Source: a virus
Reading direction: 5' to 3' (one strand)
IMG/VR virus record: IMGVR_UViG_3300031111_000010
Span: 17,177-81,176 of that record
DNA: 64,000 nt
Shown here: piece by piece, positions 9,880 to 57,823 of the stretch
Layout of the letters: each line of letters begins with the position of its first letter
Position numbering within the stretch: position 1 is the stretch's first letter
Translations under genes and position numbers: made by a program
The notes under the pieces: model-generated
What the model was told of the DNA's origin: nothing
Seen by the model: the letters and a program-made list of their open reading frames with translations, nothing else
The model's database searches: none

Positions 9880-9891
9880 TTCTTCTCCATA

Positions 9892-10200
9892 TCATAACCT
9901 CATTTCTCCATCGGTTAAGAATTTTTCTATTATTTTTTCATATACATGCAAAACATATCTTGGACTACATATCACAGTTTTGATGAATTGTAAATGATTA
10001 TCATCAAAAACACTACCAGTATGCATTGTATAGAATTCTCTTACTTCTGTATTATCTCTGTTTCTTTTATCTATCTCAAACCAGATATTTAAATCTCTAT
10101 TAATCATAGCGATATTTAATACTTTTGATTTTACAGGAACAAGTAATCTTGTTGATGTTTCATGTCCATATTGTAATGAATATTTCCATATTATCTTCAT
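9892..10200 (-). CDS. DUF7352-like hypothetical protein with shared C-terminal motif
   Basis: 102 residues starting MKIIWKYSL, like a widespread family of short phage beta proteins sometimes listed as DUF7352 (recalled, not searched). Ends FLTDGEMRL. Unlike the other motif carriers, the next gene starts 13 bases further on, so the motif is not needed to form an overlapping start. Confidence 0.65.
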   Translation of the reverse strand: MKIIWKYSLQYGHETSTRLLVPVKSKVLNIAMINRDLNIWFEIDKRNRDNTEVREFYTMHTGSVFDDNHLQFIKTVICSPRYVLHVYEKIIEKFLTDGEMRL

Positions 10201-26201: not shown

Positions 26202-26231
26202 ATTATTCTCCTAAAAATATTCTTCTATTCT

Positions 26232-26239
26232 TATTTATA
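26232..26239 (-). promoter_or_regulatory. T4-like late promoter
   Basis: TATAAATA on the minus strand, 30 bases upstream of the ATG at 26201 with GGAGAA in between. It overlaps the end of the upstream gene. Confidence 0.65.
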
Positions 26240-28691: not shown

Positions 28692-28696
28692 AATCT

Positions 28697-28704
28697 TATT
28701 TATA
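28697..28704 (-). promoter_or_regulatory. T4-like late promoter, close to ATG
   Basis: TATAAATA ends 5 bases before the ATG at 28691. The same TATAAATAAGATT-ATG spacing is kept in the paralogue at 33617 (GATAAATA), and 37863 is similar. Confidence 0.55.
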
Positions 28705-28772
28705 TATACCGTAAAATATTAACTTGTGCTTAAATTACTTCCTTTATCAATAGAATACTAAACTGCTATATC

Positions 28773-33617: not shown

Positions 33618-33622
33618 AATCT

Positions 33623-33630
33623 TATTTATC
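33623..33630 (-). promoter_or_regulatory. Late-promoter-like box, close to ATG
   Basis: GATAAATA, one mismatch to the T4-like consensus, 5 bases before the ATG at 33617. It contains the stop codon of the upstream gene. Confidence 0.45.
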
Positions 33631-35992
33631 CTGAACTTGAACTTGAACTTGAACTACTTCCTTCTGTTAATAGTATATTTTTCAATACTGCATTTGTAGC
33701 TTTTAACCATGCAGCAGATCGGGCAATATTAGAAATACGAACTTCCTCTACTTCTCCTGCTCTATATCCAATTGTTGAGTCTGGTGTTCCACCAATACCA
33801 ATGGTATCAATACCTGTAGGCCAAGCATCTCCACCAGTATCCTCTTGCTCTGTTCCTCCATTAGTATATAATTTTCTACTCGTAGAAGTAACTAACGCTG
33901 AAGCTAAATAAGCAAATTCTCCTGCATCAAGACTTACTGTTCCATTTAAAAGAGTAGTACCAGTCGAGTAAAAATTTAATCTTCCAATGTTTCCATACAT
34001 ATTAAGTAATACCATTTGATCTGGTTCACTAACATCTCCAATTCCAACTGACGGATTGTTATTTGATGCTGCTGTAATAGTAGCACGACCAGCACATTCT
34101 AAGGTAGCAGGGTAATCTGTTAAACCAGAAACACTTGCAGTAACAATATCGTTGTTACCATCAAAATCTATTGCTTTACCAAATACTCCATCTATCAAAT
34201 CATCTGAAGTCATTGATCCATTAAATGATCCATTATGTAAATTAGAAGTACTATCTAATAATGTTCCACCAGTTGGATTTTGACTCATATGATATACAGC
34301 TACAAAGTTCTCATCCCATACTGTCTGTGCAGCACTTGTACCCGTAGAACCAATATAAGAATTATTACTATTATATTCTAATGTCAGTACTGTATCTCTG
34401 TTTGCTGGTATCCAAGGAACTTTAGTCCATATTGTTCCAGATGTTTCCCATGTATCTACTTCAGTATAAAGTTCATTACCACCTGATACAGTAACATGTA
34501 AATTCTCATATGAATTAGCACTTGTAAAATCAGATGGAAGTATTATACCTACTGGAAAATCTATTAAGTTCTCATCAATCTTACTACTATCTATTGTGTA
34601 ATATAGTGGTGGTGTAGTACTACTTGAACTTGAACTTGAAGTAGAAGAACTTGAACTACTTCCTTCTGTTAATAGTATATTTTTCAATACTGCATTTGTA
34701 GCTTTTAACCATGCTGATGATCTTTGTATATTAGAAACTCTTACTTCTCCTATTTGACAATTTAGATAATCAACAGAGAAATAATTATCTGGTACTTTCG
34801 CTAATAATGGAGGACTAAAATCAGCAGTTCCATTAGGAGCAGAGATAGAATCTGTGTCATCATTTTTGTATATATTAAAAGTACCATTTACTTCATATGA
34901 TGCAGCAAAGTATTCAAATACATCAAGATTGACAGGACTAATAGTTAAAATTACTTCATTACCATCTACACCAAATCTATAATCCCATGAACTACCATTA
35001 TTGAAATTATAAATTCTAAGTCTATCTGAAAAATCTGATCTATCGGAAACAAAAATAGGAGCATAATTATTACTACCACCTAAAACATCTATTAAAGTAA
35101 ATACTTCAACTGTTCCTATGGTATTATCCATTACATCTGGCATACTTATATAATCATTACTACCATCAAAATCTATTGCTTTACCAAATACTCCATCTAC
35201 TAAATCACCAGAAGTCATAGAACCATGGGTATCACCATGATTTCCATTAACTGTGGAATCTAAAATTGTATCTGTTCCATCGGTTGGGTCTTGACTCATA
35301 TGATATACAGCTACAAAGTTCTCATTCCATACATTCTGTGCAGCAACTTCTCCTGTTTGACTTATATTCCAAGGAACAATAACATCACAAGAATTTATAG
35401 CAAAATTATCAAAGGTATAAACTAATGGTGTTGCTGAAGTAGAATTACGATATGCCATAAATCCTACATAAACATCGTCTTCTATCCAAGTATGTGCTGA
35501 ACCTATTTGTGACCATGAACCATCTTCTTCATTTTTATAATAAGCTGATACTTGATTTCCTACTCGTTTAATTCTAAATTTATTAGTATAAGGATTCGAT
35601 TTGCTACTTATATTAACTTCATCCCAAGAATCATTACTACCAGCATCATCATATCTGAAATAAGCATAGGGGGTTCCCGATCTATTTATTAGTCCTACAA
35701 AACCCCATTCAGAAGTATTATTGTCTTTATTCGGAGAAATATAAACTCCACCTTGTTGAATACTTACTACTTGACCTGTAACAGTTACAAAGTCAAACTC
35801 TATTTCAAAATCACCTTTAATTATTCTATTGAGAGTTTTATAATGATTTCCGCTATTACCTGATGAAATGGTCATTTGTGCTTCATTATCATCTATAACA
35901 GTAGAACCTGTTCCACTATTACCAGCAGCATCATACCACCATTCTTTTGAGAAATCATCTCCATTTGTTCCTGTAAAATCATCAATTATCAT
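33626..35992 (-). CDS. Lectin-like domain protein, second half of a split adhesin gene
   Basis: 788 residues: concanavalin-like domain (FDDFTG-type start, 1-~205), LamG (~215-470), serine linker, DUF2341 plus LamG, and a terminal SSSSSSSSSG. It has no gp19-like anchor. Its ATG overlaps the TGA of the gene at 35989 (ATGA) in the -1 frame. In the 1614-aa paralogue the equivalent domains are continuous (NNYERVITSPEVFDDFTG), so this and 35989-37863 look like two parts of one ancestral gene, now coupled or broken. It ends exactly at the next promoter. Confidence 0.75.
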   Translation of the reverse strand: MIIDDFTGTNGDDFSKEWWYDAAGNSGTGSTVIDDNEAQMTISSGNSGNHYKTLNRIIKGDFEIEFDFVTVTGQVVSIQQGGVYISPNKDNNTSEWGFVGLINRSGTPYAYFRYDDAGSNDSWDEVNISSKSNPYTNKFRIKRVGNQVSAYYKNEEDGSWSQIGSAHTWIEDDVYVGFMAYRNSTSATPLVYTFDNFAINSCDVIVPWNISQTGEVAAQNVWNENFVAVYHMSQDPTDGTDTILDSTVNGNHGDTHGSMTSGDLVDGVFGKAIDFDGSNDYISMPDVMDNTIGTVEVFTLIDVLGGSNNYAPIFVSDRSDFSDRLRIYNFNNGSSWDYRFGVDGNEVILTISPVNLDVFEYFAASYEVNGTFNIYKNDDTDSISAPNGTADFSPPLLAKVPDNYFSVDYLNCQIGEVRVSNIQRSSAWLKATNAVLKNILLTEGSSSSSSTSSSSSSSTTPPLYYTIDSSKIDENLIDFPVGIILPSDFTSANSYENLHVTVSGGNELYTEVDTWETSGTIWTKVPWIPANRDTVLTLEYNSNNSYIGSTGTSAAQTVWDENFVAVYHMSQNPTGGTLLDSTSNLHNGSFNGSMTSDDLIDGVFGKAIDFDGNNDIVTASVSGLTDYPATLECAGRATITAASNNNPSVGIGDVSEPDQMVLLNMYGNIGRLNFYSTGTTLLNGTVSLDAGEFAYLASALVTSTSRKLYTNGGTEQEDTGGDAWPTGIDTIGIGGTPDSTIGYRAGEVEEVRISNIARSAAWLKATNAVLKNILLTEGSSSSSSSSSG

Positions 35993-37863
35993 TCGGTTAT
36001 TTCCTTTGAATAATTATTGCTACCATATTCCAATTTCAATACTGTATCACTTGCAGATGGAATAAATGGTACTTTAGTCCAAATTACTGCTCTATCATTA
36101 GAAGGTTCCCATACATCTACTTCAGTATAAAGTTCTGTATTACCACCTGACACTGTAACATGTAGATTTTGCCATCCAGAAGTAGGTTGACTTGAAATAA
36201 ATCCTGTACCTGAAACATTAATACCTACTGGAAAATTTGTTAAGTTCTCATCAATTTTACTACTATCTATTGTATAGTAAAGTGTTGATATAGTAGAAGT
36301 AGAAGCAGAACTTACACTTGAACTTGAAGATTCTGAGCTTGAACTACTCACTGAACTTGAAGATTCTGAGCTTGAACTACTTACTGAACTTGAAGATTCT
36401 GAGCTTGAACTTGAATAACTTGAACTTGAATAACTTGAACTTGAACTTGAGCTTGAAAGAGAACTTGAAGATTCACTTGAGCTTGAACTTGAGCTTGAAC
36501 TTGAAAGAGAACTTGAAGATTCACTTGAGCTTGAACTTGAAAGAGAACTTGAAGATTCACTTGAGCTTGAACTTGAAAGAGAACTTGAAGATTCACTTGA
36601 GCTTGATTGACTTGAGCTTGAAATATTATAATATTCTATTTCACAAGGATAAATTAAAACACCACCACCTTCTGTTGTTGATGTTGCTCCCCACTTATTA
36701 TCACCACCATAATAACGACTTGTATCATTTCTTAATTTAAACCATCTTGCAGTCTGTGGTGTATCGAAGTCTACTCTAAATGCAAATTCATATCCAGTTC
36801 CTAAAACTGAAGGTGAATGAATTGGTGGTTTAATCCATGTATCAATCCATTCCCATGTTATTCCATCATCTGATTTATATGCACCAACTACTCCACTATC
36901 ATTATCAACCCATGCATCATAAATACGACTTGATGATGATGTTCTAAACCAGAAAATAATACCATTGATTGTCATTGGTTCTGTTGTAGCCACCCAAAAT
37001 GACGTATTATAACCAACATAATCATTATCTGCTACTGCATATATATTACCATCTATTAGTCCGGGATATGATGCTGAGTTTTCTGTTACAAGAGGATTAG
37101 GATTCCATCCACTCCATGCACCTACAAGATACGTCGAAGAAGAACTTGATTTTGATGAACTTGATTTTGATGAACTTGAGCTTGAACTTGAAAGAGAACT
37201 TGAAGATTCACTTGAGCTTGAACTTGAGCTTGAAGAACTCAGGCTTGAACTTGAGCTTGAAGAACTCAGGCTTGAACTTGATGATGATGTCCAAGATTTA
37301 GAAGAAGAAGATCGAGAAGAAGAACTAAATTCAGCAGTCCAAGCTGTACTTCTCACATAGAAATAATCATATTCAAAGGTGACCATACTTTCTAATACAA
37401 TATCACCTTCTCTTTGTGACATTCCAATTTCTGCTAACTGAGTAGGCCAAATATCAACAAACACTATTTCCATAACAGGTTTTTTATAGTTGTTCGTAAT
37501 TATCATTGATGCATCAACTGAATATTCTTTATGATATTCAGCTATTTTATCACAATTATTATTGATATAACTCATCCACCTGAATAATAAACTCCAATTA
37601 TCCAATCGTGAATCAACAACAAAGTTAACCATCCAACTTTCAAATTCTAATGGGTTTAAGTCATACTTGACTTTATTACCTTGCCAACTTATCTCATTAA
37701 CCCCTATATTCAAGGATGGAATAACAGCAGAGAAGATATTCATTACGAAAGGATTGTTAGACGCAATACTACTTTCAGTTGGTATCAGGGGAAATACCAA
37801 CTGAAAATTTGTAGGTGTGGCCTTGTCTATATTATTAAGGTTGGATGTATTGCATACTATCAT
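35989..37863 (-). CDS. Tail-tube-domain / poly-Ser protein with discoidin-like domain, first half of a split gene
   Basis: 624 residues: gp19-like domain (1-~180), serine linker, an F5/8C- or discoidin-like domain (GAWSGWNPNPLV to YPCEIEYYN), a long serine linker with SES and SLS repeats coded by a 36-base tandem repeat, then DUF2341 (YYTIDSSKIDENLTNFPVG). The DUF2341 part ends early at LEYGSNNYSKEITE, where the paralogue continues. The following gene overlaps the stop. Late box 37869-37876. Confidence 0.78.
   Translation of the reverse strand: MIVCNTSNLNNIDKATPTNFQLVFPLIPTESSIASNNPFVMNIFSAVIPSLNIGVNEISWQGNKVKYDLNPLEFESWMVNFVVDSRLDNWSLLFRWMSYINNNCDKIAEYHKEYSVDASMIITNNYKKPVMEIVFVDIWPTQLAEIGMSQREGDIVLESMVTFEYDYFYVRSTAWTAEFSSSSRSSSSKSWTSSSSSSLSSSSSSSSLSSSSSSSSSSESSSSLSSSSSSSSKSSSSKSSSSSTYLVGAWSGWNPNPLVTENSASYPGLIDGNIYAVADNDYVGYNTSFWVATTEPMTINGIIFWFRTSSSSRIYDAWVDNDSGVVGAYKSDDGITWEWIDTWIKPPIHSPSVLGTGYEFAFRVDFDTPQTARWFKLRNDTSRYYGGDNKWGATSTTEGGGVLIYPCEIEYYNISSSSQSSSSESSSSLSSSSSSESSSSLSSSSSSESSSSLSSSSSSSSSSESSSSLSSSSSSSSYSSSSYSSSSSESSSSVSSSSSESSSSVSSSSSESSSSSVSSASTSTISTLYYTIDSSKIDENLTNFPVGINVSGTGFISSQPTSGWQNLHVTVSGGNTELYTEVDVWEPSNDRAVIWTKVPFIPSASDTVLKLEYGSNNYSKEITE
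36425..36605 (-). repeat. 36-base tandem repeat coding SES/SLS-poly-Ser
   Basis: At least three near-perfect copies of a 36-base unit (plus strand begins CTTGAGCTTGAACTTGAAAG) within the serine linker of the 35989 gene. Each unit codes 12 residues, mostly serine with one E and one L. Such repeats favour length change and recombination. Confidence 0.75.
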
Positions 37864-45621: not shown

Positions 45622-45657
45622 TGACAATTTTTGTCAAACATATGACAATTTTTGTCA
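45622..45657. promoter_or_regulatory. Tandem palindromic upstream activating sites
   Basis: Two perfect copies of TGACAATTTTTGTCA with centres 21 bases apart; the second overlaps the spoVR stop codon. It matches the tandem pair at 17004-17039 and, like it, lies upstream of a sigma-54-like promoter. Confidence 0.65.
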
Positions 45658-47169
45658 TAAGTCTATTTCAATATTCGAATCAATCTCTTTAGACTTATTT
45701 GCTACATACTTAAATTTCATCTTGTTTTTAATGGTTTCCAGATTACATTTTTCACCCCACAAAAACTGAATATGTTCAAGGGTTTTTTGTGCATACTCAG
45801 GATCAAGATCAGCACCAATATGTTCATGTTTGAGTAACAATTCACCCTGTTTGTGATAATTACCATCCATAACGAACACTTTTGGAATACCACTATGTGC
45901 AAAACTTCTAATAATAATTTGGCAGATTTCTTTTGCTGTATTATCTGTGATTACTACTTCTTCCATAAAAACATTGGATTGAATTGCATACATATATAAA
46001 TCCAATTTTCTAACCAGTTTTGGAGTTAAGAAGTTATGCATAAACATCCAATCATTACTTGTACGGAGAACTTTAAACATCTTCTCCATACCCTTCATAG
46101 ATTTATCATCGTAGTTCATCTTTAAATCATGGTCGGTAGTTTCATCATAATCTTTACCATGTTGACCTTTATTCCAACGATCTACAATATCTTCCCACAT
46201 TTCACATCCTATCAAATAGGGATTCATGCTGAAAGGATTTTTTGATTTAACAAGAGAATTGCTATAGTTACATTCAGCATGTTCAGTAGCTGTAAGCAAT
46301 CCTTCCCGAAATAACTGCCTGAGAATTCTTTCATGCCAGAAGGTAGCAAATCCTTCATTCATATATTTGGTTTTGATATTCGGCCAAACATACTGACCCC
46401 ATGCTCTGATAATTTCAAGAATATCTTTTTGCCATGTTGAAAGGTTTCGGGAATGATCAATAACATACCTGATTAAATCTTCAGTAGGTTCAACAGGAGT
46501 TTTATTCTTCAAAGCAACATACAGAGCATTGTTGTATCTTTCCCTTTCCATATCGGCCTGAGAATCATCTTCAAATAAATCCATGAATTCAGTAACAGAT
46601 TTATCATGTTTCTTCTGTTTCTTCTGTTCAAATATACGTTCTATTTTTTCATCTTCAGTTTCTTGACTTAACCAAGGATTTGAATGAAGCATAATTGAAT
46701 GACCAGCATCAATAGTAGATTCAACCAAATCGATACCATACTTATTAATATAATCCTCAATTCGATTGGATGCATTGCTTAATCTACTAGCAATGTTCTC
46801 ATCATTCTCAACATGATACTGATTCATATTGAAGAAAGCAACATGACCTACAACGTGAGCAATAATCAATGCCTGTAGAGCAATTGTATTATCTTTCATT
46901 AGATATGCTCTTGCAGGATTGGTATTGACTACTACTTCATAAGGTAGACCAGCACCTATTTTCTCATAGATAGTTCGTTGTTTTTCATAATCCCTTCCGA
47001 ATTTCCATGATCGAATCTGACCCGGAATTCCATATGCCATTATCTCAAACATCTTTTCAGCAGGAATGACATCGAATTCAATATCACAGAATTCCAGACC
47101 ATTTTCTTTTGCAATTTCATAAATACGCTGTTCTATTTTTTGTAGTCTTTTTAATTCACTATTTTGCAT
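45655..47169 (-). CDS. spoVR: SpoVR family protein
   Basis: 504 residues, full length for SpoVR/YcgB. AYGIPGQIRSWKFGRDYEKQ, YEVVVNTNPARAYLM, AHVVGHVAFF and GFATFWHERI are characteristic. The molecular function is unknown; in bacteria it goes with prkA and yeaH in stress, stationary-phase or sporulation programmes. The start overlaps the yeaH gene by 11 bases, so all three phage genes form one operon. Confidence 0.93.
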   Translation of the reverse strand: MQNSELKRLQKIEQRIYEIAKENGLEFCDIEFDVIPAEKMFEIMAYGIPGQIRSWKFGRDYEKQRTIYEKIGAGLPYEVVVNTNPARAYLMKDNTIALQALIIAHVVGHVAFFNMNQYHVENDENIASRLSNASNRIEDYINKYGIDLVESTIDAGHSIMLHSNPWLSQETEDEKIERIFEQKKQKKHDKSVTEFMDLFEDDSQADMERERYNNALYVALKNKTPVEPTEDLIRYVIDHSRNLSTWQKDILEIIRAWGQYVWPNIKTKYMNEGFATFWHERILRQLFREGLLTATEHAECNYSNSLVKSKNPFSMNPYLIGCEMWEDIVDRWNKGQHGKDYDETTDHDLKMNYDDKSMKGMEKMFKVLRTSNDWMFMHNFLTPKLVRKLDLYMYAIQSNVFMEEVVITDNTAKEICQIIIRSFAHSGIPKVFVMDGNYHKQGELLLKHEHIGADLDPEYAQKTLEHIQFLWGEKCNLETIKNKMKFKYVANKSKEIDSNIEIDL

Positions 47170-48514
47170 CGGTTTCCTCTCTTTCTGGATGGTGTAAACT
47201 CAACATGTGCTGAAGACAAGGCCAAATATGACTTTTATCTTTAATAACTGACAATAAGAAATGTAAATCATTATTGATCCAAAACTTACCTTCCTTACTC
47301 AAAGTAGATTCCTGAAATTTCCAATTCTTTAGACACTCAGGAAGTAGAGTAGAGAAACCATACTCATACTGTATATCACTATCACCAAACAAATCGTGAT
47401 ATGGTTTAATCTCAACATAAGAAAGCATATTGATTTTTTTAGCAACCATATCTTCCATTGATGATACTGCTTCCTTTGGTTCCCAATCTTCACCATCAGA
47501 GCAGTATACAGCATAAATGTTCCATTCATCAAGTGGATATTCAGTATCAATGATATAGTTGGCTTTATCAAATGCAGACTTAGCAACTGTACCACCTGTT
47601 TCACCACCATAGAAGAAAGTATTTTCATCTACTTCTAATGCACGATCAGTATGTTGGATAAATCGAATTTCAACTGCTTCATACTGCTTACGGAGAAAAT
47701 TAATCATCCAAAACAATAGACTTTTGACAAGATATTTTTTATCGGGAGTCATTGAACCTGATACATCCATCATAGCAAATACTACTGCCTTTGAACAAAT
47801 CTCTTTTTCTTCTTCGATCTGTTTGTATCGTAAATCATCATCATGAATGAGGAAACCAGTAGGTTCATTACCATTTAATTCACCATCCACTATGATACGA
47901 ACAGCTTCTTCAATATCACCTTTGCCTTGCTGTAATGCTTTACAGGCATCTTCATATGAACAATCTGTTTGTTCCATTACTTCTCTAACAAACATGATGT
48001 TACGCTTTGCTGCTTCTCTCATAGTACGTTTTTTATGAATCCTTGCAAACGTACCTTTTTTGGAGATGGATTCAAACTTCCATCCTTTGGGTATTTCAAT
48101 GGAGTTTTTCTTTTTCGGATCAAGCCAAGGTAAACCTAAATCTTCCATCATTACATCAATCAACTGATCAATATCAATTTCAACTTCCATATCACCAGCA
48201 CCATGACCTTGACCAGCACCTTGACCTTGATCACCACCTTGTTTTGGTCTTCTACCAATAACATCACCAGCTTGACCATCACCTTGACCAATACCACCAC
48301 CACCTTTACCGGGAGTAGCATGGATAAAACGATAGTCTTTTAATCCCTTTACTGGTACTCTGACTTTCTTTTTACCTTCTTGGGTAATGATATTCTCAGT
48401 ACCAATGACATCTCTTACATTTTTTCGGATAGCTTCATCTATTTTCTCTTGATGTCTTTTGGCATCAGTAACCCCTTTTTTGGTATCCCATGTTTCATGA
48501 TATACAATTGTCAT
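47159..48514 (-). CDS. yeaH: YeaH/YhbH (DUF444) family protein
   Basis: 451 residues. DUF444 features: an RFIHATPGKGGGGIGQGDGQ region, RTMREAAKRN, and a C-terminal vWA-like domain with FAMMDVSGSMTPDKK near residue 250 and GGETGGTVAKSAF. A partner of the PrkA kinase in bacteria. AAAGGA precedes the ATG. A tRNA-Ala lies between it and prkA. Confidence 0.92.
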   Translation of the reverse strand: MTIVYHETWDTKKGVTDAKRHQEKIDEAIRKNVRDVIGTENIITQEGKKKVRVPVKGLKDYRFIHATPGKGGGGIGQGDGQAGDVIGRRPKQGGDQGQGAGQGHGAGDMEVEIDIDQLIDVMMEDLGLPWLDPKKKNSIEIPKGWKFESISKKGTFARIHKKRTMREAAKRNIMFVREVMEQTDCSYEDACKALQQGKGDIEEAVRIIVDGELNGNEPTGFLIHDDDLRYKQIEEEKEICSKAVVFAMMDVSGSMTPDKKYLVKSLLFWMINFLRKQYEAVEIRFIQHTDRALEVDENTFFYGGETGGTVAKSAFDKANYIIDTEYPLDEWNIYAVYCSDGEDWEPKEAVSSMEDMVAKKINMLSYVEIKPYHDLFGDSDIQYEYGFSTLLPECLKNWKFQESTLSKEGKFWINNDLHFLLSVIKDKSHIWPCLQHMLSLHHPEREETDAK

Positions 48515-48535
48515 AAGTTAGTCCTTTATATTTTA

Positions 48536-48611
48536 TGGTGGATGGGAAGGGATTCGAACCCTCAACCTCTGCCTTGCAAGGGCATTGCTCTCCCGTTGAG
48601 CTACCGCACCC
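48536..48611 (-). tRNA. tRNA-Ala (anticodon TGC)
   Basis: 76 bases with encoded CCA and discriminator A. Anticodon loop CTTGCAA between TGCC and GGCA gives TGC. The acceptor has the G3-U70 wobble that identifies alanine tRNA and one C-C mismatch near its base. T arm GGTTCGAATCC. It lies within the prkA-yeaH operon. Confidence 0.88.
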
Positions 48612-48625
48612 ACATTCAACTTATA

Positions 48626-50608
48626 TTATGATTCTCTCCGCAAAATCTCACCGACGAACCCAAGGATAGCAGAGGCGCAATGTTTACAGTACCCCTTCTT
48701 CTCCAAGGTTCTCAATGCACGACTTCTTCTCGCTTTAACCTTAGAATCAGTAGAAACCGTATTGGCAATCGAAAGCTGAACAACATTCTTAAGATCATTC
48801 ATCAGCTTTTTCTCAATTGCATCTTTCAAGGGTTTATATGTATCCCACTTCCATTCCTTACCATCTTCCAAGGTATCTGACTTATAAACATAAACACCTT
48901 TTCGGAATTCACGTTTGGATTCCATGGGTACAGGGATTAGTTCTTCTACTGCTCTCATGATCTTTTCATCAGGATCACGATATTCACCAGTGATATCATC
49001 GAATACTGTTTCTTCTTTACAGAAGGCTTTACAGTTAATATCATATCGATTGAACAGTTCATTTGCCTGATCTTCAAAGGCATGGATAAAGGCTTTGCTA
49101 ACTTCTCTTTTAGCAAATTCCTTGTATTCCGAAACAACTGAATCTTCTTTCGAAATGAGAAGTTGCATATACTTCTCTTTATCCTTTTCATTACCACCCA
49201 TATGATGCTCAAAGTTATCCCTTAAAGCACGAATCATATCAAGAGCAGTAATACATCCTTTGTATCTTTCATCACCAGTTTCGACGTTATCTTTCTGACC
49301 AAGTGCAATGTTGATAGCATTGGTGATAAATCGTGGTGATATACCTGTCATACATTCACCGTTTTCTCGACCTTCTTGCCGAATCAGTTTGATGTCTTTG
49401 TCTTTACCCTTTGAGAACTCATCAAGGAACTCATTGTTGTAAAGTTTCATCTTCTGAATCGGATTGATTTTCTTAGAAGGATACAAACGAGTCAGAATTG
49501 CAAACTGAGCAGCAACTTCCAGAGCACCCGGAGAAATATGGATATCAGAGAACTCAGATTCTGCAATCAACTTCTGATAGATTTTAATTTCATCAGCAAT
49601 GGTATCATTCCATGGCACCTTGACATAATACATACGGTCATGGAGTGCTTCATTTGCTGGATCATTTCTGAACTTGTCGAATTCAGTCTGGTTAGTATGA
49701 CTGAGAATCAACTCATCCAAATACATCTGAGGAAATCCCGGTGTTTTGATAACCTGTTCCTGTGCAAGAGTAATCAACACATGATGGAACTTGATATCAG
49801 CTTTGAGAATTTCGATATACTCAATGACCCCACGGTTAGCTACTTGAAGCTCACCATCAAACTGATATGCTCTTGGATCACTTTCCGAATACATATGCAG
49901 TTTAGCCATATTTACTCTACCAATCAACTCAGTAATATCTTGAGATTTAGGATCAGAAGGAGTAAATGTACCAATGGAAGTTCTACGCTGTTCGGATATT
50001 TTAACCAGTTCCACAGGAAATTCATGCCAACGGGCAAAACCATCTTTGTCGGTAAATTCGCTGTCAAGACGCAACTGGCATACAGGACATAACTCACCTT
50101 CGATTTTTACACCCAACTTCTTATTCCACTCATCACGAAACTGTTGTGGAATTGCATGGAGTGGGTCTTCATGGATAGGACAACCTTGGATAGCAAACAA
50201 AGGAGTATCATCCATTTCCAGACCACGTTTGATTAATGCAGCAATGGTGGACTTACCACCAGAAACCGGACCCATCAACATCAGGATACGTTTACCTGTT
50301 TCGGTTCTCCTTGCTGCTGCCTTGAGGAACTTCATCATATCATGAATCGGTTCGTAGCTACCAAAGATTTTACCATCAAAGAACTTGTATCTTACCAAGT
50401 CTTCATAGCCTTTGGTTTTACGGTTTTCTGGAACAGGTTCAGTTCCATGTTTCATGATCATATTGTAAATTCTGGCAGGAGCAAGTGTAGAAATCTCAGG
50501 ATGAGCAATTACCTCATTCATGTATTCTATCAACTGACCTTCCCATTTAGTAGGACCAACCTGTTCCTGTTGTGATAGCATTAATTCCCTAAAATCTTCA
50601 TTCATCAT
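48626..50608 (-). CDS. prkA: PrkA serine protein kinase-like AAA protein
   Basis: 660 residues, full length for PrkA/YeaG. P-loop GPVSGGKST at 113-121; then IQGCPIHEDPLHAIP, IEGELCPVC, IGTFTPSDPKSQDITELIG, ESDPRAYQFDGELQVANRG and the C-terminal domain. It resembles the Bacillus-type PrkA more than E. coli YeaG. In bacteria it is reported as a kinase or AAA protease in stress responses. Here it heads an operon with yeaH and spoVR, an intact host-like module in a phage. Confidence 0.94.
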   Translation of the reverse strand: MMNEDFRELMLSQQEQVGPTKWEGQLIEYMNEVIAHPEISTLAPARIYNMIMKHGTEPVPENRKTKGYEDLVRYKFFDGKIFGSYEPIHDMMKFLKAAARRTETGKRILMLMGPVSGGKSTIAALIKRGLEMDDTPLFAIQGCPIHEDPLHAIPQQFRDEWNKKLGVKIEGELCPVCQLRLDSEFTDKDGFARWHEFPVELVKISEQRRTSIGTFTPSDPKSQDITELIGRVNMAKLHMYSESDPRAYQFDGELQVANRGVIEYIEILKADIKFHHVLITLAQEQVIKTPGFPQMYLDELILSHTNQTEFDKFRNDPANEALHDRMYYVKVPWNDTIADEIKIYQKLIAESEFSDIHISPGALEVAAQFAILTRLYPSKKINPIQKMKLYNNEFLDEFSKGKDKDIKLIRQEGRENGECMTGISPRFITNAINIALGQKDNVETGDERYKGCITALDMIRALRDNFEHHMGGNEKDKEKYMQLLISKEDSVVSEYKEFAKREVSKAFIHAFEDQANELFNRYDINCKAFCKEETVFDDITGEYRDPDEKIMRAVEELIPVPMESKREFRKGVYVYKSDTLEDGKEWKWDTYKPLKDAIEKKLMNDLKNVVQLSIANTVSTDSKVKARRSRALRTLEKKGYCKHCASAILGFVGEILRRES

Positions 50609-50624
50609 AACATTTTTCCTTTCA

Positions 50625-51149
50625 TTAGTTGTTGGTTTGTACTTCTTCTACTTCTTCTACTTCTTCTACTTCTTCTACTTCATCACTCTGACCAATTCTT
50701 CTTAAAGACCCATCTTGGATGGATTTTAAAATATCTTCTCTGGACGCAATCAAAACATTAGTTGTACCGTTTGTTGGTCCTCTTACCACCTTTGCTTCTC
50801 TAATAGCAAGTTCTTTTTCCTTTAATAATACTAATGCTTTTCTCACATCCATATATTCAGTTTGATTTTTATCTGTAAGTATCTCCTTTGATGCTTGTGT
50901 TACAGAATTTATAACCGTACCTGCTACTTCTGCTAACCTTGCTGTAAAATTACCGTTATTCATTTCATGTTGAATCTTCTCTAATAATTGATTAGCATTA
51001 TAGATGTTCTTTCTCAAAGCATCTATGGCATCGTTATAATCTATTTCTGTATCAAAGTCAACCTTTTTTTCTTCAGCTTCATTATCAATCCTGTTTGTAT
51101 CTGAAAAAATTTCATCTAAACCTCTTAAATCTAACTCATTATTTGGCAT
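50625..51149 (-). CDS. gp16: Small terminase subunit, gp16-like
   Basis: 174 residues from the ATG at 51149 (AGGAGG upstream). The order DTEIDYNDAIDALRKNIYNANQLL, ARLAEVAGTVINSV, then NVLIASREDILKSI parallels T4 gp16 (164 aa): an acidic start, a central helical pair and a late strand. The end is five EVE repeats (about 50635-50680), probably an expandable tract. gp16 recognises DNA and regulates gp17. Identification is by pattern, without alignment. Confidence 0.62.
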   Translation of the reverse strand: MPNNELDLRGLDEIFSDTNRIDNEAEEKKVDFDTEIDYNDAIDALRKNIYNANQLLEKIQHEMNNGNFTARLAEVAGTVINSVTQASKEILTDKNQTEYMDVRKALVLLKEKELAIREAKVVRGPTNGTTNVLIASREDILKSIQDGSLRRIGQSDEVEEVEEVEEVEEVQTNN

Positions 51150-51229
51150 ATCTGTTAATCCTCCTAATAAATATAACTGTCTACAGATATTTATCAAGGC
51201 TTATATAAAAAAAATTTAAAAAAGTCAAG

Positions 51230-51248
51230 AAAAAAGGTCACCTTTTTT
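51230..51248. terminator. Short bidirectional hairpin
   Basis: AAAAAAGG-TCA-CCTTTTTT, between the divergent gp16 gene and the plus-strand block. Stem mostly A-T; terminator-like on either strand but weak. Confidence 0.35.
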
Positions 51249-51257
51249 TTAAGTTTA

Positions 51258-51266
51258 TGTTATAAT
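51258..51266 (+). promoter_or_regulatory. Extended -10 promoter
   Basis: TGTTATAAT, a perfect extended -10, 22 bases before the ATG at 51289, with AAGGAG between. No clear -35. It drives the plus-strand metabolic block. Confidence 0.6.
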
Positions 51267-51288
51267 GCCTTTTATTTAAGGAGAGTCT

Positions 51289-52248
51289 ATGAATATATTG
51301 GTTACAGGAGCATGTGGTTTAGTAGGTTCACATTTATGTGATTTGTTGTTATCTCAAGGACATACAGTGTTTGGCCTTGATAATTTATTGAATGGTAAGA
51401 TCGAAAATCTACCTAAAGGAGTAGATTTCATTAAACATGATGTTGAAATACCACTTTGTGGTAATCCATTTTTAGGTGTTGATATTGATAGGATATATCA
51501 TTTGGCTTGTCCTGCTTCACCAGTACATTATCAACGTACACCTATTAAGACAATGTTATCATCGATCATGGGAACATATAATATGCTTGAATTGGCATAT
51601 GCTAATAATGCCAGATTTCTTTATACTTCCAGTTCAGAAGTGTATGGAAACACAAAGAACCAACCCATATCCGAATTACAGTTAGGAGAAGATATAGATA
51701 CATTAGCAGATCGATCTTGTTATGTAGAAGGTAAACGGGCATCGGAAACTCTAATATGGAATTATATCAAAGAGAAAGAATTGGATGTGAGAATTGCAAG
51801 GTTGTTTAATATCTTTGGTCCAAGGATGGCAAAAGATGATGGTAGAGTAATAGCAAGTTTTATGTATGAACGTCCTATTCATATTCATGGTAAAGGAGAA
51901 CAGAAACGATCTTTTACTTATGTTACAGATTGTGTTGAAGGATTGAATAGATTGATGGAATATGATAATCCCCATAAACCCATTAATATCGGTAATCCTA
52001 ATGGTTATATTAGTATTAAGAAGTTAGCTATGATAATGTTTGAATTAATGGAAGAAGAACTTGTTGAAGGAATGGATGAATTTTGTGAGGATTGTACAGT
52101 AGTTCATACAGCAGATAGGTCAGACTCAGAAGTATTTCAGCGTATGCCTGATATTTCAGAAGCTATCTATTATTTAAAATGGAGTCCTAAAGTTCCTATT
52201 ATAGAAGGACTTGAAATGACAATAAAGGAGATGAAGAATGACGATTAG
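51289..52248 (+). CDS. NAD-dependent sugar-nucleotide epimerase/decarboxylase (UXS-like)
   Basis: 319 residues. TGACGLVGSH nucleotide-binding motif at the start; HLACPASPVHYQRTPIKTMLSS and SSSEVYGNTKNQP; catalytic YVEGK; LFNIFGPRM..DDGRV; KRSFTYVTDCVEGL. These features place it in the UDP-glucuronate decarboxylase branch of the extended SDR family. It probably makes or alters a sugar nucleotide for DNA or surface glycosylation. It overlaps the next gene by 11 bases. Confidence 0.85.
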   Translation: MNILVTGACGLVGSHLCDLLLSQGHTVFGLDNLLNGKIENLPKGVDFIKHDVEIPLCGNPFLGVDIDRIYHLACPASPVHYQRTPIKTMLSSIMGTYNMLELAYANNARFLYTSSSEVYGNTKNQPISELQLGEDIDTLADRSCYVEGKRASETLIWNYIKEKELDVRIARLFNIFGPRMAKDDGRVIASFMYERPIHIHGKGEQKRSFTYVTDCVEGLNRLMEYDNPHKPINIGNPNGYISIKKLAMIMFELMEEELVEGMDEFCEDCTVVHTADRSDSEVFQRMPDISEAIYYLKWSPKVPIIEGLEMTIKEMKNDD

Positions 52249-52726
52249 TTGGGATGAGTATTTTATGACAATGGCATATCTGGCAGCAATGAGAAGTAAA
52301 GATGAATCAACTCATTGTGGTGCTGTGATTGTAGATGAAGTTAATAATGTGGTTGCTACTGGTTATAACTCATTTGTAAGAGGAATAGATGATAACAATC
52401 CAGATAGACAAAAAAGACCAGAAAAATATTTATGGTTTGAACATGGAGAAAGAAACGCTATTTATTCTGCTGCCATGAGAGGATGTAAACTTAATGGATG
52501 TAAAATATATGTTACTGGTATTCCTTGTGCTGATTGTGCAAGAGGAATAATTCAAGTTGGTATTAAGGAAGTCATTGTTGAAAAAAGAGAAAGTTTTGGT
52601 GAAGAATGGAATGATAGTATGAAGGTAACAATGAAAATGTTTGAAGAAGCTGGAATTAAATTTAGATTGACAGATGTAAAATTTATTAGAGAGATATATG
52701 AGTTTACAAGGGGAGAAAAGCTGTAA
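52238..52726 (+). CDS. dCMP deaminase
   Basis: 162 residues. Cytidine deaminase zinc motifs HGERNA at ~70 and PCADCAR at ~94, with AAMRSKDESTHCGAVIVD and GYNSFVRGI typical of deoxycytidylate deaminases. It makes dUMP from dCMP to feed thymidylate synthesis for an AT-rich genome. A coupled start precedes the kinase-like gene. Confidence 0.9.
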   Translation: MTISWDEYFMTMAYLAAMRSKDESTHCGAVIVDEVNNVVATGYNSFVRGIDDNNPDRQKRPEKYLWFEHGERNAIYSAAMRGCKLNGCKIYVTGIPCADCARGIIQVGIKEVIVEKRESFGEEWNDSMKVTMKMFEEAGIKFRLTDVKFIREIYEFTRGEKL

Positions 52727-53100
52727 TGGTAATATGGATAACTGGAAAATCATCAGCAGGTAAAACAGTATATGCCAAACGATTTAAAAGATTATTCGAA
52801 TCAATGGGAGAAAAGGTTTTACTTTTGGATTCTGATGTGGTAAGGGATCAAGTAGACAATCAAGGATATACTGATGAAAGTAGAGAAAAACACATAATGG
52901 ATATTGCAGATTATGCTGCTATTGCTGAGAGACAAGGATTCTTGGTTATAATAGCAATAATATCACCTAAGAAAGAATGGCGAATGAAAGCAAGAAAGAA
53001 GTTTGAGAAGTCTATGCTCATATACATGCCTGATGGTAAGTTATGGGAAGGAACAGAATATGAAGAACCAGACCATGAAGAAATGATGGTGGAAGGATAA
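52726..53100 (+). CDS. APS-kinase-like P-loop protein
   Basis: 124 residues. P-loop GKSSAGKT at 7-14 and LLDSDVVRDQVDNQGYTDESREK, the core of adenylylsulfate kinase (CysC), with AIISPKKEW and a C-terminal YEEPDHEE. Shorter than CysC (~200), so the lid region is reduced. It may phosphorylate a sugar, nucleotide or sulfate donor together with the UXS-like enzyme; the substrate is unknown. Confidence 0.75.
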   Translation: MVIWITGKSSAGKTVYAKRFKRLFESMGEKVLLLDSDVVRDQVDNQGYTDESREKHIMDIADYAAIAERQGFLVIIAIISPKKEWRMKARKKFEKSMLIYMPDGKLWEGTEYEEPDHEEMMVEG

Positions 53101-53105
53101 AATAT

Positions 53106-53477
53106 ATGGCAGAAAAGTTTTCTAATGTAGATAAAGATCAACGCAGAGCAATTGAAGAAGAACTTGAAAGTAAATCTCAATCACTTGGTATGGATAGTTA
53201 TGAATCATATGGAAGTGATGCACAAACTGGAATGAAAGAATTAGTTGGTATGTGTTATAACTGTAAGAATCTTAATTATTGTAAAACTGAATTTGGTACT
53301 GTTCATGCTGTTTGTGCTATGTTTGAATTTAAACTGAGTGGTAGAAATAGAATTACTGAATGTAATCTTCACTCACCCAAAAACGTACTATCTCTTAATG
53401 AAATGTACTCTATTGCATATCTTATTGATCCAGATACAAATAAAAAAGTTAAAGGGTTTGTAGGAGATAAGAAATGA
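53106..53477 (+). CDS. Cysteine-rich hypothetical protein
   Basis: 123 residues; the middle carries CYNCKNLNYC...CAMFEFKL...C, five cysteines in a spacing that suggests a zinc or iron-sulfur site, common in phage proteins of unknown role. Overlaps the next start by 4 bases. Confidence 0.7.
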   Translation: MAEKFSNVDKDQRRAIEEELESKSQSLGMDSYESYGSDAQTGMKELVGMCYNCKNLNYCKTEFGTVHAVCAMFEFKLSGRNRITECNLHSPKNVLSLNEMYSIAYLIDPDTNKKVKGFVGDKK

Positions 53478-53647
53478 AATATACAAATAAAAAAACAGGA
53501 AAAGAATATAACAGAGTAGGTAATGTTTTAAATGCTACCAATGCTAATGATGGTGAAGTAATGGTTTTATATGAAAGAAAAGGTAATTTTTATGTTAGAG
53601 AAGTAGATGAATTTTATGAGAAGTTTGAAATAACAAGGGGGGATTAA
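53474..53647 (+). CDS. DUF1653-like small protein, 57 aa
   Basis: ATG at 53474 overlaps the previous stop. NKKTGKEYNRVGNVLNATN, VMVLYERKGNFYVREVDEF resemble the short DUF1653 fold. The stop lies in the terminator at 53637-53655. Confidence 0.55.
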   Translation: MKYTNKKTGKEYNRVGNVLNATNANDGEVMVLYERKGNFYVREVDEFYEKFEITRGD

Positions 53648-53655
53648 ACCCCCCC
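53637..53655. terminator. G/C hairpin between convergent genes
   Basis: GGGGGG and CCCCCC around ATTAAA, overlapping the end of the plus gene and just before the end of the minus gene at 53665. Similar to hairpins at 16023 and 23376. Confidence 0.6.
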
Positions 53656-53664
53656 ATTCACTAT

Positions 53665-53805
53665 TTAGTCTGTTGGCCCGACTTGAGTAGTATCTTCTAT
53701 TTCTGTTGCTGCTTGATTATCAAAATGACTATCGATATATAAAGCACCAAGTCCAAGTAGAATAGCTACTAACAAGGCAATAGCCCATCCTTTCTTACCT
53801 TTCAT
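53665..53805 (-). CDS. Small membrane-anchored protein, 46 aa, late expressed
   Basis: ATG at 53805 with AAGGAGG; earlier in-frame starts lie on the other side of the late promoter. One N-terminal membrane helix ([17 protein letters not shown]) and a short acidic tail. Its own late box TATAAATA at 53826-53833. Could be a virion or lysis accessory protein. Confidence 0.7.
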
Positions 53806-53825
53806 AATAATATCCTCCTTATCTA

Positions 53826-53833
53826 TATTTATA
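53826..53833 (-). promoter_or_regulatory. T4-like late promoter
   Basis: TATAAATA on the minus strand, 20 bases upstream of the ATG at 53805 with AAGGAGG between. Confidence 0.7.
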
Positions 53834-53853
53834 TTTTTAAATTTATTTTTTAC

Positions 53854-53882
53854 TTGACAAAGCCTGTGTCTTATGATACGGG
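53854..53882 (+). promoter_or_regulatory. Possible sigma-70-like promoter with inverted repeat
   Basis: TTGACA (53854-53859), 17 bases, TACGGG. The -10 is poor. AAAGCC...GGCTTT arms (53858-53886) form an inverted repeat over the site. It precedes the HNH-like gene and may be an operator or the leader of that gene. Confidence 0.35.
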
Positions 53883-53892
53883 CTTTGTTATT

Positions 53893-54360
53893 ATGATAAA
53901 TCAAAGATTTGGAAAACTAACTGTGGTAAGAGAGAACGGCAAGGCACCTAACAGATGTATCATATATGAATGTCTGTGTGATTGTGGTGAGCTATATAAT
54001 GTTCGTGGAGATATGCTAAGAAACGGCTCAATGTATCAATGTAAGAAATGCCGTTATGAGAATAGCAAGCTAACCAAACATGGGCAAAGAAAAGCAAACG
54101 ATACCTCTCCTACTTATGAATCATGGAAGGGTATGAGAAACAGATGTCTCAATCCTAAAAACTATGATTATAAGAACTATGGTGGTAGAGGAATTATGGT
54201 CTGTGAACGATGGACTGTGTTTGAAAACTTTTTTGCTGATATGGGTGAACGTCCCGAAGGAATGACATTAGATCGTATAGATAATGACGGTCATTATGAA
54301 CCATCAAATTGTAAGTGGTCTACCTATAAAGAACAAGCCAATAATAGGAGAGAAAGATGA
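53893..54360 (+). CDS. HNH-like homing endonuclease
   Basis: 155 residues from ATG at 53893; a TTG start at 53854 would lie in the promoter. An N-terminal zinc part ([10 protein letters not shown]...CKKC) is followed by [41 protein letters not shown] and [18 protein letters not shown]. This is the widespread mobile endonuclease-like family often annotated HNH or AP2. A paralogue lies at 56957. Probably a mobile, self-propagating gene. Confidence 0.8.
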
Positions 54361-54623
54361 TAAAAATAATATCAAAAAAGAGATATCAAAAAATTCTCAA
54401 ATTGGAACATGATAGATATTTCGAAGACCAAGATAATACAGTAGAAGCATATAAACTTTTATCATTCTGTTATGATATTATAAAAGATAATGAGAAATAT
54501 AAAGAACATTGGATAAAAAGACATATCAATAGATGGCTTGTGGATAATTTTGTAATAGGGTTGATTCATAAAGAGAATGAAAAAAAATTACAAGAAAGAA
54601 TAAAAAAAGGGAAGTGGTCATAA
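54357..54623 (+). CDS. Hypothetical protein, 88 aa
   Basis: Start overlaps the HNH-like stop (ATGA), so co-translated. Helical, basic ([27 protein letters not shown]). No family recognised. Ends inside a bidirectional terminator. Confidence 0.65.
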
Positions 54624-54637
54624 CTCCACTCCCCTTT
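54606..54637. terminator. Bidirectional terminator
   Basis: 12-base stem AAAGGGAAGTGG/CCACTCCCCTTT (one G-T). Seven T follow on the minus strand, T4 on the plus strand. It ends the gp23 transcript and the plus-strand block. Confidence 0.8.
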
Positions 54638-54661
54638 TATATCTTTCAATCTACTCGCTAA

Positions 54662-55903
54662 TTACTGAGGCAGATTAGACAACTGAATCAGTTGATAATA
54701 CTCTCTCGCTCCAAAAAGGTGATTATGAATTGCATATCTACTCATCAAACCAACAGTTGGATGGAATGAGTTTTCGAATACTGCTCTACTTGCCAGCAAC
54801 TGAATGTATGGCAGATAGATAACACCAGTATCATATTCGGATGGACCCTTATAACCGACGATAATTTGATCTCTTGTTTCAAAGGTATCTCTATAAACTA
54901 CGAGTCTACCATCAAGAGAACCAATTCTACTCACACCAGTAGGTTGAGTAGTAACGTCACCGGGAACAGGTGCGATAGCAAAAGCTGCCAGAGTTTCAAG
55001 AACAGCAACTGCTCTTGGGTTACCGACTAACCAGTTACCAGAACCACGTCTAGTATTGATAGCGATGTCTTGAGTTCTACGGATAATGTGGTGATACAAT
55101 TCTCTGTATCTTTCCATTTCCCATCTACCCTTAACACCTTGAGCACTTGCCAAGAAATCCCATGTGGTATCATATCCAGAAACACCCCTTACTGTAGCAT
55201 CGATAGCTGCAATAAGTTCTCTGTCGATTTCCTGTGTGATTTCGTAAGCAAGAATGTCCATCATTTCTTCCTCAAGATTCAAGCCATGCATAGCCTTAAG
55301 GTCTTGAGCAATTTCTAATGACCATCTGCTTCTCAATTTTCTGGTTTTCGCTTCTACCTGAGTCTTTTCAACAGTCAGGTTGACTTCTCTGATATGAGTA
55401 CCAGTACCAATACCAAGTCCAATGTCAGAACCAACAGTTCCGGGTGTAGTTCCTAAAGAACCAAGAGCTTCACCAGCAGATGTGATGTATGATCCTGAGT
55501 AACTTGTATCAATGTTGTTGTAACCCAATTCAGTAGAGTTAGCAGTATAAGTTCCAGCAGTTGTTCCTGCTCTAAAACGTAGAGCAAAGGCCAAACCAAC
55601 AGGTCCGGTCAATGGCTGAACACCCACCAACTGATGTGCTACCAGTTCAGGGAAAGTTCTTCTTACCATTGGTACAGCAATTTTGTGAAACATACCAGAA
55701 GTAGGATAGTTAGCACCATCGATACCTCTACCATCACCAGCACCCAAAGAATCAGCACCAGTACCCCATCCAGTTGTTTCCATCAAGAAATTATGCTGGT
55801 TTTCAAGCATAATTGCAGTAGACTTTCTTACTCTGTCGGAATCGATTGATTTACCTTCTTTAAGAACCGCATCCCACTTTTTCACTAAGTCTCTAATATC
55901 CAT
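54662..55903 (-). CDS. gp23: Major capsid protein gp23
   Basis: 413 residues (T4 gp23 is 521 before cleavage). FPELVAHQLVGVQPLTGPVGLAFALRF, then LSIEIAQDLKAMHG-like WSLEIAQDLKAMHGLNLE, and NWLVGNPRAVAVLE with GFYKGPSEYD-like segments are T4 gp23 features of the HK97 fold. The first ~40 residues are a probable propeptide; LME|T near residue 42 suits gp21 cleavage. It follows scaffold and protease genes as in T4. Confidence 0.93.
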   Translation of the reverse strand: MDIRDLVKKWDAVLKEGKSIDSDRVRKSTAIMLENQHNFLMETTGWGTGADSLGAGDGRGIDGANYPTSGMFHKIAVPMVRRTFPELVAHQLVGVQPLTGPVGLAFALRFRAGTTAGTYTANSTELGYNNIDTSYSGSYITSAGEALGSLGTTPGTVGSDIGLGIGTGTHIREVNLTVEKTQVEAKTRKLRSRWSLEIAQDLKAMHGLNLEEEMMDILAYEITQEIDRELIAAIDATVRGVSGYDTTWDFLASAQGVKGRWEMERYRELYHHIIRRTQDIAINTRRGSGNWLVGNPRAVAVLETLAAFAIAPVPGDVTTQPTGVSRIGSLDGRLVVYRDTFETRDQIIVGYKGPSEYDTGVIYLPYIQLLASRAVFENSFHPTVGLMSRYAIHNHLFGAREYYQLIQLSNLPQ

Positions 55904-56956: not shown

Positions 56957-57823
56957 ATGAATGATATAATTGGAAAAAAATTTGGAGTATTAAAAATATT
57001 ATCTCATGCATATTATGATGGAAAACATCATTATTATTTTGCTGAGTGTGAAAACTGTAATCAGAGTATTATAGTACATAGAAATAATCTATTAAATGGT
57101 AGAACAAAATCATGTGGATGTTTAAAAAAAATAAAAGAAAAGAAAGCGAGAAAAAAAAGATATAAACATGGACATATAATAAATGGAAAAAGAACTCCAA
57201 CATATGGTTCTTGGTTTAATATGAAGCAAAGATGTTTGAATCCTAATAATCCAGCATATATGAGATATGGTGGTAGAGGAATTACTGTATGTAAAAGATG
57301 GATGGAGTTTACAAATTTTTTAACTGATATGGGTGAACGTCCTAATAATAAAACTATAGATAGAATAGACAATGATGGTAATTATGAACCTGATAATTGT
57401 AAATGGAGTACAATATCAGAACAAAGAAAAAATAATAGTTACAATATTGATAAAGAAGAATTAAAAAAAAGAAAACTTGAAAAAAGAAAAAGAATAAAAA
57501 GAGAAGAAACAAAAAGAAGAAAAATAGAAAAATTAGAAAAACCATTATTTAGATTACATGGAAGTGTTATTCCATTTGATTATTTTAGAAAGGATGGTAA
57601 GATTTATTATAAAGTATTATGTAAATGTAGAAAACCATTTGTTATTTATAAAGGTAATATGAAAGATGATATGTCTTGTTCTTTTTGTGGAAGAAAATAT
57701 AGAGGTAGAAATACTGATTTTATAAAAGTAAAATATACTGATAAATTAAAAAAAGCATTTGATGTTTTATATGATAATGGATATATAAAAACAAAGAAAT
57801 TAGCCCATATTGTAAGATTATAA
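56957..57823 (+). CDS. HNH-like homing endonuclease, paralogue
   Basis: 288 residues, AGGAG before the ATG. Same family as 53893: an N-terminal zinc segment (CENCNQS, CGCL), SWFNMKQRCLNPNNPAYMRYGGRGI, VCKRW, NFLTDMGERP, DRIDNDGNYEPDNCKWST. Then a very basic stretch and an extra C-terminal domain with CKCRKPF and CSFCGRK, a second zinc site. It is inserted on the opposite strand in the head gene block and has its own late box and terminator. Confidence 0.82.
   Translation: MNDIIGKKFGVLKILSHAYYDGKHHYYFAECENCNQSIIVHRNNLLNGRTKSCGCLKKIKEKKARKKRYKHGHIINGKRTPTYGSWFNMKQRCLNPNNPAYMRYGGRGITVCKRWMEFTNFLTDMGERPNNKTIDRIDNDGNYEPDNCKWSTISEQRKNNSYNIDKEELKKRKLEKRKRIKREETKRRKIEKLEKPLFRLHGSVIPFDYFRKDGKIYYKVLCKCRKPFVIYKGNMKDDMSCSFCGRKYRGRNTDFIKVKYTDKLKKAFDVLYDNGYIKTKKLAHIVRL

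Follow-up and report, generated by a model that had tools for sequence, protein, structure and literature searches.

Why would a phage keep genes for a sugar-nucleotide decarboxylase, a deaminase and an unusually short APS-kinase-like protein in one tightly packed run, and need the three products work together at all? The question arises from a block within the window, that is, the whole 64,000-nucleotide stretch of DNA analysed here, which corresponds to positions 17177-81176 of an 81,176-base virus record (G000). A preliminary description had named the three genes, and all three ORFs are indeed present at the positions it gave, with their identities confirmed by family matches. Together with their neighbours they are as follows.

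48626-50608, minus strand: PrkA-type kinase (PF08298, 7e-109)
50625-51197, minus strand: 190-residue ORF, the divergent neighbour of the block (no family match in Pfam, PHROGs or NCBIfam)
51289-52248, plus strand: UDP-xylose synthase (UXS)-like NAD-dependent decarboxylase/epimerase of 319 residues (PF01370, 5e-45; human UXS1, 4gll/2b69, 253 bits)
52238-52726, plus strand: dCMP deaminase of 162 residues with an HGE ... PCADC zinc site (PF00383, 7e-23; phrog_174, 1.5e-38)
52726-53100, plus strand: lidless APS-kinase-like protein of 124 residues (PF01583, 9e-20 over residues 1-96)
53106-53477, plus strand: Cys-rich protein of 123 residues, next after the kinase and conserved in relatives
53474-53647, plus strand: 57-residue protein, with which the co-directional run closes (weak matches to DUF1653 and phrog_16021)
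54662-55903, minus strand: T4-type (gp23-like) major capsid protein (33-35% in the best tblastn rows against gp23-type capsid proteins)

The tight overlap described for these genes amounts to 11 nt between the UXS-like and deaminase ORFs and 1 nt (TAATG) between the deaminase and kinase ORFs, and the 57-residue ORF overlaps the Cys-rich gene by 4 nt. The single promoter proposed for the block is not borne out, since 19 promoter-like sites were found as against 20.3 expected from shuffled sequences. A search of 50400-54700 in Rfam gave no match. Terminator-like stems, several of them overlapping, numbered 9 in 50900-54700 against 0.9 expected from shuffles, and include those at 54605-54638 and 53637-53655; the longest of them is a minus-strand stem just beyond where the capsid gene ends.

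The block occupies the plus strand between the PrkA gene, with the 190-residue ORF intervening, and the capsid gene. The minus strand carries capsid, portal, scaffold, protease and terminase genes, of which the capsid alone is backed by a search and the others are named from their ORFs and position, as well as a PrkA-DUF444-SpoVR set. PrkA, the same gene order and the 190-residue ORF recur in the loci L002, L003 and L004/L005, marking the equivalent genomic place, and the capsid protein is 93-95% identical between the window and L002-L004. The phage-borne PrkA, DUF444 (YeaH) and SpoVR set (45655-50608, minus strand) is also retained next to the block in L002, L003 and L004, the L002 contig beginning inside SpoVR; PrkA matches among GenBank phages comprise 16 records, namely 11 Thermus phages, 4 uncultured huge phages and 1 Enterobacter phage. 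Two related-looking ORFs of homing-endonuclease type, with no Pfam match, flank the capsid and scaffold genes (53854-54360 and 56957-57823, both plus strand).

Other features of the window may be mentioned here. Large proteins with long serine runs (SSSSS), perhaps surface or fibre proteins, are encoded at 25323-37863 on the minus strand beside a probable tail sheath gene, and an RNA-related set on the same strand consists of a peptidyl-tRNA hydrolase PTH2, a queuosine salvage protein and an RtcB ligase (6178-6585, 12588-13436 and 14061-15272). Thirteen small ORFs of this record (window 2858-10200, minus strand, and L008 15847-16128) end in a C-terminal tag of roughly F-[IL]-x-[EK]-x-[DE]-[MF]-x-[LIV], for example EFLTEKDMEL and NFITESDMEL; shuffled ORF ends gave 0.1 on average, for a pattern that was defined after seeing the ORFs. 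As the codons of the tag vary and its residues stay constant, its conservation looks to be at the protein level.

The kinase, as had been remarked, is much shorter than CysC (124 residues as against 194 in Salmonella CysC). On alignment with the Salmonella enzyme, a lid-sized stretch (21+4 columns) was found to be deleted in all 15 viral members, so that every one of them lacks about 25 lid residues, among which are the Arg that stacks on ATP and the active-site Lys. The other 14 members are 36-83% identical to the window kinase and, as read, are mostly 111-151 residues long (211 in L020), with L010 and L018 cut in the alignment at the point where their tblastn match ends. A truncation by frameshift or assembly error was considered and is ruled out, because members at such identities have the same deletion and the dN/dS of about 0.14-0.38 (six comparisons, four phages) indicates purifying selection. 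After the deletion most viral members have a YEEPD-like end as in CysC, to which the tail of the Archaeoglobus APS kinase gives a weak match.

In the passages of PMC4373884 concerned with the M. tuberculosis CysC, the lid is given as residues 552-581, carrying Arg559 and Lys562, its closure is described as essential, and APS is held by Asp480, Arg483, Phe492, Arg497 and Ser524. By our mapping the latter five correspond to D37, R40, Y48, R53 and S80 of the window kinase, which thus has the APS-binding Arg/Arg/aromatic residues of CysC together with its P-loop and LDGD-type motif. K13, D35 and R40 are invariant in 15/15 members, D37 and R53 are nearly so, and position 48 is aromatic in 14 of them (Pro in L004). 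Trp107, also invariant in all 15, is located near the position at which Phe576 of the mycobacterial enzyme stacks on the adenine of APS; a takeover of this role by Trp107 is a guess. The protein scores 71.7 bits against the curated PF01583 cut-off of 21.1 and falls short of that of the equivalog TIGR00455 (75.6 vs 138.7 bits). As the lid motif RDxKGxY, which holds Arg559 and Lys562, is missing, we call the protein APS-kinase-like and not CysC. Because the lost lid carries these two residues, and its closure is described as essential in the mycobacterial enzyme, the sequence gives no assurance of APS kinase activity.

The AlphaFold model of the kinase (pLDDT 90) has the fold of an APS kinase. 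Its top structural match is the APS kinase 7yq0 (Z 18.0, 1.7 A), in which 120 of the 124 residues align and the match runs over 3-146 of the chain and 1-121 of the model. The best 30 solved matches (Z 18.0-14.2) consist without exception of APS kinases and of APS-kinase-like domains within larger proteins, with gluconate kinase as the next fold at Z 12.7. In the Foldseek viral library the best match is an uncultured phage CysC. In a tree of 42 rows, in which the lid columns were kept and near-identical copies (L005, L016, L017, L019, L143, L146, L148 and L155) and a doubtful CysC (L167) were left out, a single branch with support 98/96 unites 18 lidless rows, the window among them. Further short viral APS-kinase-like proteins without the lid motif (L162-L166, 124-144 residues from the match start) fall outside this branch, some on long branches, and therefore lid loss may be older or repeated; a home-made model detects a sulfotransferase-like ORF in the flanks of 2 of these 5. 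No cellular relatives of the short kinase were found in two genome-contig scans made by short peptide patterns only. Plasmid records matching the kinase number 413, and among the 10 listed, 7 are annotated cysN and 1 cysC.

A pointer to the role of this kinase comes from its company. Sulfotransferases of the PF13469 (Sulfotransfer_3) family were detected in 16 of 22 kinase-bearing records (14/19 and 2/3), over the curated cut-off in 13 (12/19 and 1/3), as against 1 of 50 dCMP-deaminase-bearing viral records, and none over the cut-off, in a control that takes 50 of 80 deaminase loci and was neither dereplicated nor matched by host, habitat or genome type. Fisher's test gives p of about 3e-10 by record or by lineage, a value to be taken as a guide only since the records are related and the control unmatched. 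For the lineage count, G003/G004, G012/G014/G015 and G017/G018 were merged by us, leaving 18 lineages, 14 of them with a sulfotransferase, and the control was left unmerged. L126 (G070), where the home-made model and not PF13469 detects a sulfotransferase, was counted as without. Several matches stay below the cut-off, those in the closest relatives, G001 and G004, among them. Sulfotransfer_1 occurs in 8/19 kinase records and Sulfotransfer_2 in 3/22.

The two genes are often adjacent. Measured between the edges of the profile matches, with one record per lineage, the nearest sulfotransferase match lies within 0.7 kb of the kinase in 9 of the 14 lineages having one and at 8-49 kb in the other 5, and the two ORFs overlap in L009 and L012. 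Neighbours of the kinase in L009-L015 resemble sulfotransferases and sugar enzymes; out of nine candidate ORFs, eight match Pfam Sulfotransfer_1, _2 or _3 over the cut-off and the remaining one, in L011, matches weakly (E 0.008), and a tenth is a UDP-glucose dehydrogenase. As regular partners of the kinase, UDP-glucose dehydrogenase and family-2 glycosyltransferases were rejected, being present in only 1/22 and 6/22 records, respectively. The home-made sulfotransferase model matched the flanks of 9/17 lidless loci, 4/22 lid-bearing loci (L140-L161, where L154 and L155 are one letter off the motif and were counted by eye), 2/6 further loci without the lid motif (L162-L167) and 1/80 control loci. 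PF13469 is preferred to this model, since its training set consisted of sulfotransferases from the lidless loci and the flanks are shorter in the control. On these matches the lidless form is not alone in its link to sulfotransferases, which also accompany lid-bearing viral CysC at four loci.

The window's own 81-kb record contains no sulfotransferase (PF13469, PF00685, PF03567) and no family-2 glycosyltransferase, so that the assignment of its kinase to sulfation rests on relatives. The sequence of this record stops shortly after the portal gene. G001 is the closest long relative (capsid protein 95% identical) and continues 48 kb further; beyond the portal gene it carries glycosyltransferase, CmcI-type methyltransferase, DegT aminotransferase and epimerase genes, with a sub-threshold sulfotransferase-like ORF (E 1.4e-4) about 49 kb from the kinase. 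Past its portal gene G004 has UDP-galactopyranose mutase and DegT genes, and a fragment at the record end gives a weak Sulfotransfer_1 match. The surface-glycan precursors suggested in the preliminary description thus gain indirect support from the kinase family's sulfotransferases and the relatives' sugar genes, support which does not extend to a sulfotransferase in the window's own record.

The UXS-like protein is assigned by its nearest solved relatives, four UXS1 sequences scoring 250-253 bits and the next protein, an epimerase, 122. The YxxxK motif and UXS segments are present, with GACGLVG, YVEGK and QRMPDI retained, and the copies in L003 and L004 are 70-71% identical. A single-protein scan detected no relatives, and an alignment scan yielded three copies of the phage group (the L003-L005 contigs) and one distant match at 28%. 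Because UDP-glucose dehydrogenase is found in 1/22 records, the enzyme would need host UDP-glucuronate. In the deaminase, which scores over the PF00383 cut-off, H69, E71, C97 and C100 of the HxE and PCxxC site are invariant in four sequences; it would most simply serve DNA precursor supply and is probably separate from a glycan pathway. In the Cys-rich protein, C50, C53, C59, C70 and C86 are invariant in six sequences. Its gene is conserved in L002, L003, L004, L021 and L022, in the last directly after the deaminase, and it matches no family in Pfam, PHROGs or NCBIfam; its AlphaFold model, at pLDDT 39, is unusable.

Taken together, these observations lead us to regard it as on balance probable that the block provides precursors in activated form for a glycan which is phage-directed and probably sulfated, and that it includes one unrelated nucleotide enzyme. 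The lidless kinase would phosphorylate APS made by the host to PAPS, the sulfate donor, from which phage sulfotransferases would transfer sulfate to a glycan of the virion or of the infected cell; for this phage, the sulfotransferase would be encoded in the unseen part of the genome. The UXS-like enzyme would convert host UDP-glucuronate to UDP-xylose for the same or another glycan, and the dCMP deaminase would feed dUMP to DNA synthesis, outside the glycan pathway.

A different view is that the site between PrkA and capsid is permissive and has gathered late or accessory genes by chance, with the kinase, the UXS-like enzyme and the deaminase acting in separate processes. Viral loci with the short kinase numbered 6 in a single-protein scan, 18 in an alignment scan and 21 with a wider alignment, and the block is found at the equivalent place in L002, L003 and L004/L005. 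UXS is absent from L002. L022 has the UXS end, the deaminase and the Cys-rich gene and lacks the kinase; the gene of a 68-residue CxxC protein (232-438, plus strand) separates the UXS end from the deaminase there. Two types occupy the deaminase slot, a short one in the window and L022 (161 residues in L022) and one of 198-210 residues in L002-L004, the latter being 44-46% identical to the window deaminase. In 14 more distant kinase loci (L006, L007, L009-L020; 11 lineages by our merging), the fetched flanks contain no match to the window UXS or deaminase. These differences between loci would fit a chance collection, and the missing UXS, the two deaminase types and the absent kinase mean that the three genes need not be one pathway. 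Against it, the order UXS, deaminase, kinase and Cys-rich gene is retained in L003 and L004, where protein identity to the window is 56-78% for the UXS-like, kinase and Cys-rich proteins and 46% for the deaminase. As the kinase is conserved under purifying selection and the block content varies, we conclude that the kinase gene is real and the gene set loose, and we hold a mere chance collection to be rather doubtful.

It is also conceivable that in losing the lid the protein switched to another substrate and acts as a different nucleotide or sugar-nucleotide kinase, the product of which is used or modified by the neighbours of sulfotransferase fold. APS-kinase homologues with other nucleotide substrates exist, for example Campylobacter Cj1415; the lost lid touches both nucleotides in CysC, and the shortfall against TIGR00455 points the same way. 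However, the protein retains the residues binding the phosphosulfate and the adenine of APS, with Arg40 in every aligned member and Arg53 in nearly all, and the genetic link to sulfotransferases likewise tells against a changed substrate, which we consider unlikely.

The published interpretation of viral cysC is that of a sulfur-assimilation auxiliary gene, which would here raise the supply of PAPS that is reduced in the host to sulfite and cysteine. The parts of PMC10914622 that deal with cysC describe 62 such genes in 7,334 freshwater phage genomes as belonging to assimilatory sulfate reduction, and the corresponding passages of PMC9529941 interpret likewise three Challenger Deep viral CysC of 109-135 residues, which group with CysC from other viruses and separately from those of prokaryotes; in both, viral cysC is counted as a sign of a viral part in sulfur cycling. 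The fold and the APS-site residues of the window kinase are the same as in CysC, and a host may supply cysH. Nevertheless, a PAPS reductase of cysH type (PF01507) occurs in only 1/22 kinase records and in 0/5 of G000-G004, which may be fragments, although the same profile matched 14/14 genomes of a positive control. ATP sulfurylase (PF01747) exceeds the cut-off in 0/19 records, the one sub-threshold match having internal stops, and sulfotransferases are frequent in these records as described above. The sulfotransferase link, the rarity of PAPS reductase and the lack of ATP sulfurylase favour PAPS for sulfation, from host-made APS, over assimilation, which we find quite improbable for this kinase.

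A hypermodified DNA base, with the deaminase supplying the pyrimidine, the UXS-like enzyme a pentose donor and the kinase activating or sulfating the base, accords with the pentose-modified cytosines that the relevant passages of PMC6024577 and PMC12838424 describe in phages RB69 and Thanatos and with the citation of Iyer 2013 on phage nucleotide sulfation in PMC10829341, but the modified-base precursors of the preliminary description are highly improbable since no gene of the thymidylate synthase/dCMP hydroxymethylase family (PF00303) was found in G000-G004, which are probably fragments (5/22 kinase records have one), and the fetched flanks of the 14 distant kinase loci contain no match to the window's UXS or deaminase. 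The Tet_JBP family (PF12851) was detected in 0/22 kinase records, with the control likewise silent.

Returning to the reading of a sulfated glycan, a more general proposal can tentatively be made, which we think possible and somewhat short of probable. The lidless proteins may be a virus-specific clade of minimal APS kinases devoted to sulfation and not assimilation, forming with sulfotransferases a portable PAPS-plus-sulfotransferase module by which many phages build sulfated, possibly xylose-containing glycans, and a part of viral 'cysC' may belong here. If short viral cysC does serve sulfotransferases, part of the sulfur-cycling interpretation would shift to the synthesis of sulfated glycans; an APS kinase of about 120 residues that works without a lid would, in addition, put the function of the lid to the test. 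The word 'sulfotransferase' is absent from the main texts of PMC9529941 and PMC10914622. Viral sulfotransferases are listed in PMC13079714 and mentioned in PMC10829341, the pertinent passage of which suspects nucleotide or protein modification, citing Iyer 2013. Among the titles and abstracts listed from the openly licensed literature, none describes a lidless APS kinase or its pairing with sulfotransferases in phages.

Among known systems, the pentose-modified DNA of RB69 and Thanatos resembles the present case in that phages make use of an activated pentose, as suggested here. As far as the cited passages go, these phages act on hydroxymethylcytosine or carry a hydroxymethylase-type gene, of which none was found in G000-G004 (probably fragments), and Thanatos makes its UDP-xylose by a pyrophosphorylase and not by UXS (PMC12838424). 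The phage UXS-like protein and UXS1 (4gll, 2b69) are alike over the whole length and have in common the YxxxK and Rossmann motifs and the DGRV and RxPDI segments; the phage protein differs in a Ser in place of Thr in the SSEVYG segment and is 4 residues shorter after DGRV. The short Challenger Deep and freshwater viral CysC, likened here by their description in part of the sources, perhaps belong to the same family as the window kinase, and what is added to them is the loss of the lid and the sulfotransferase link. The CysC of a huge phage (LR756500), of MT838634 and of Pseudomonas phage Y4, three relatives from GenBank records, are likewise phage-borne APS kinase domains, but all three have a full lid. 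Finally, the cellular CysC of Archaeoglobus (7yq0) and M. tuberculosis and the window kinase have a common fold, P-loop, LDGD-type motif, APS-binding arginines and YEEPD-like end, and what sets the viral proteins apart is the absence of the lid with its ATP-stacking Arg and active-site Lys.
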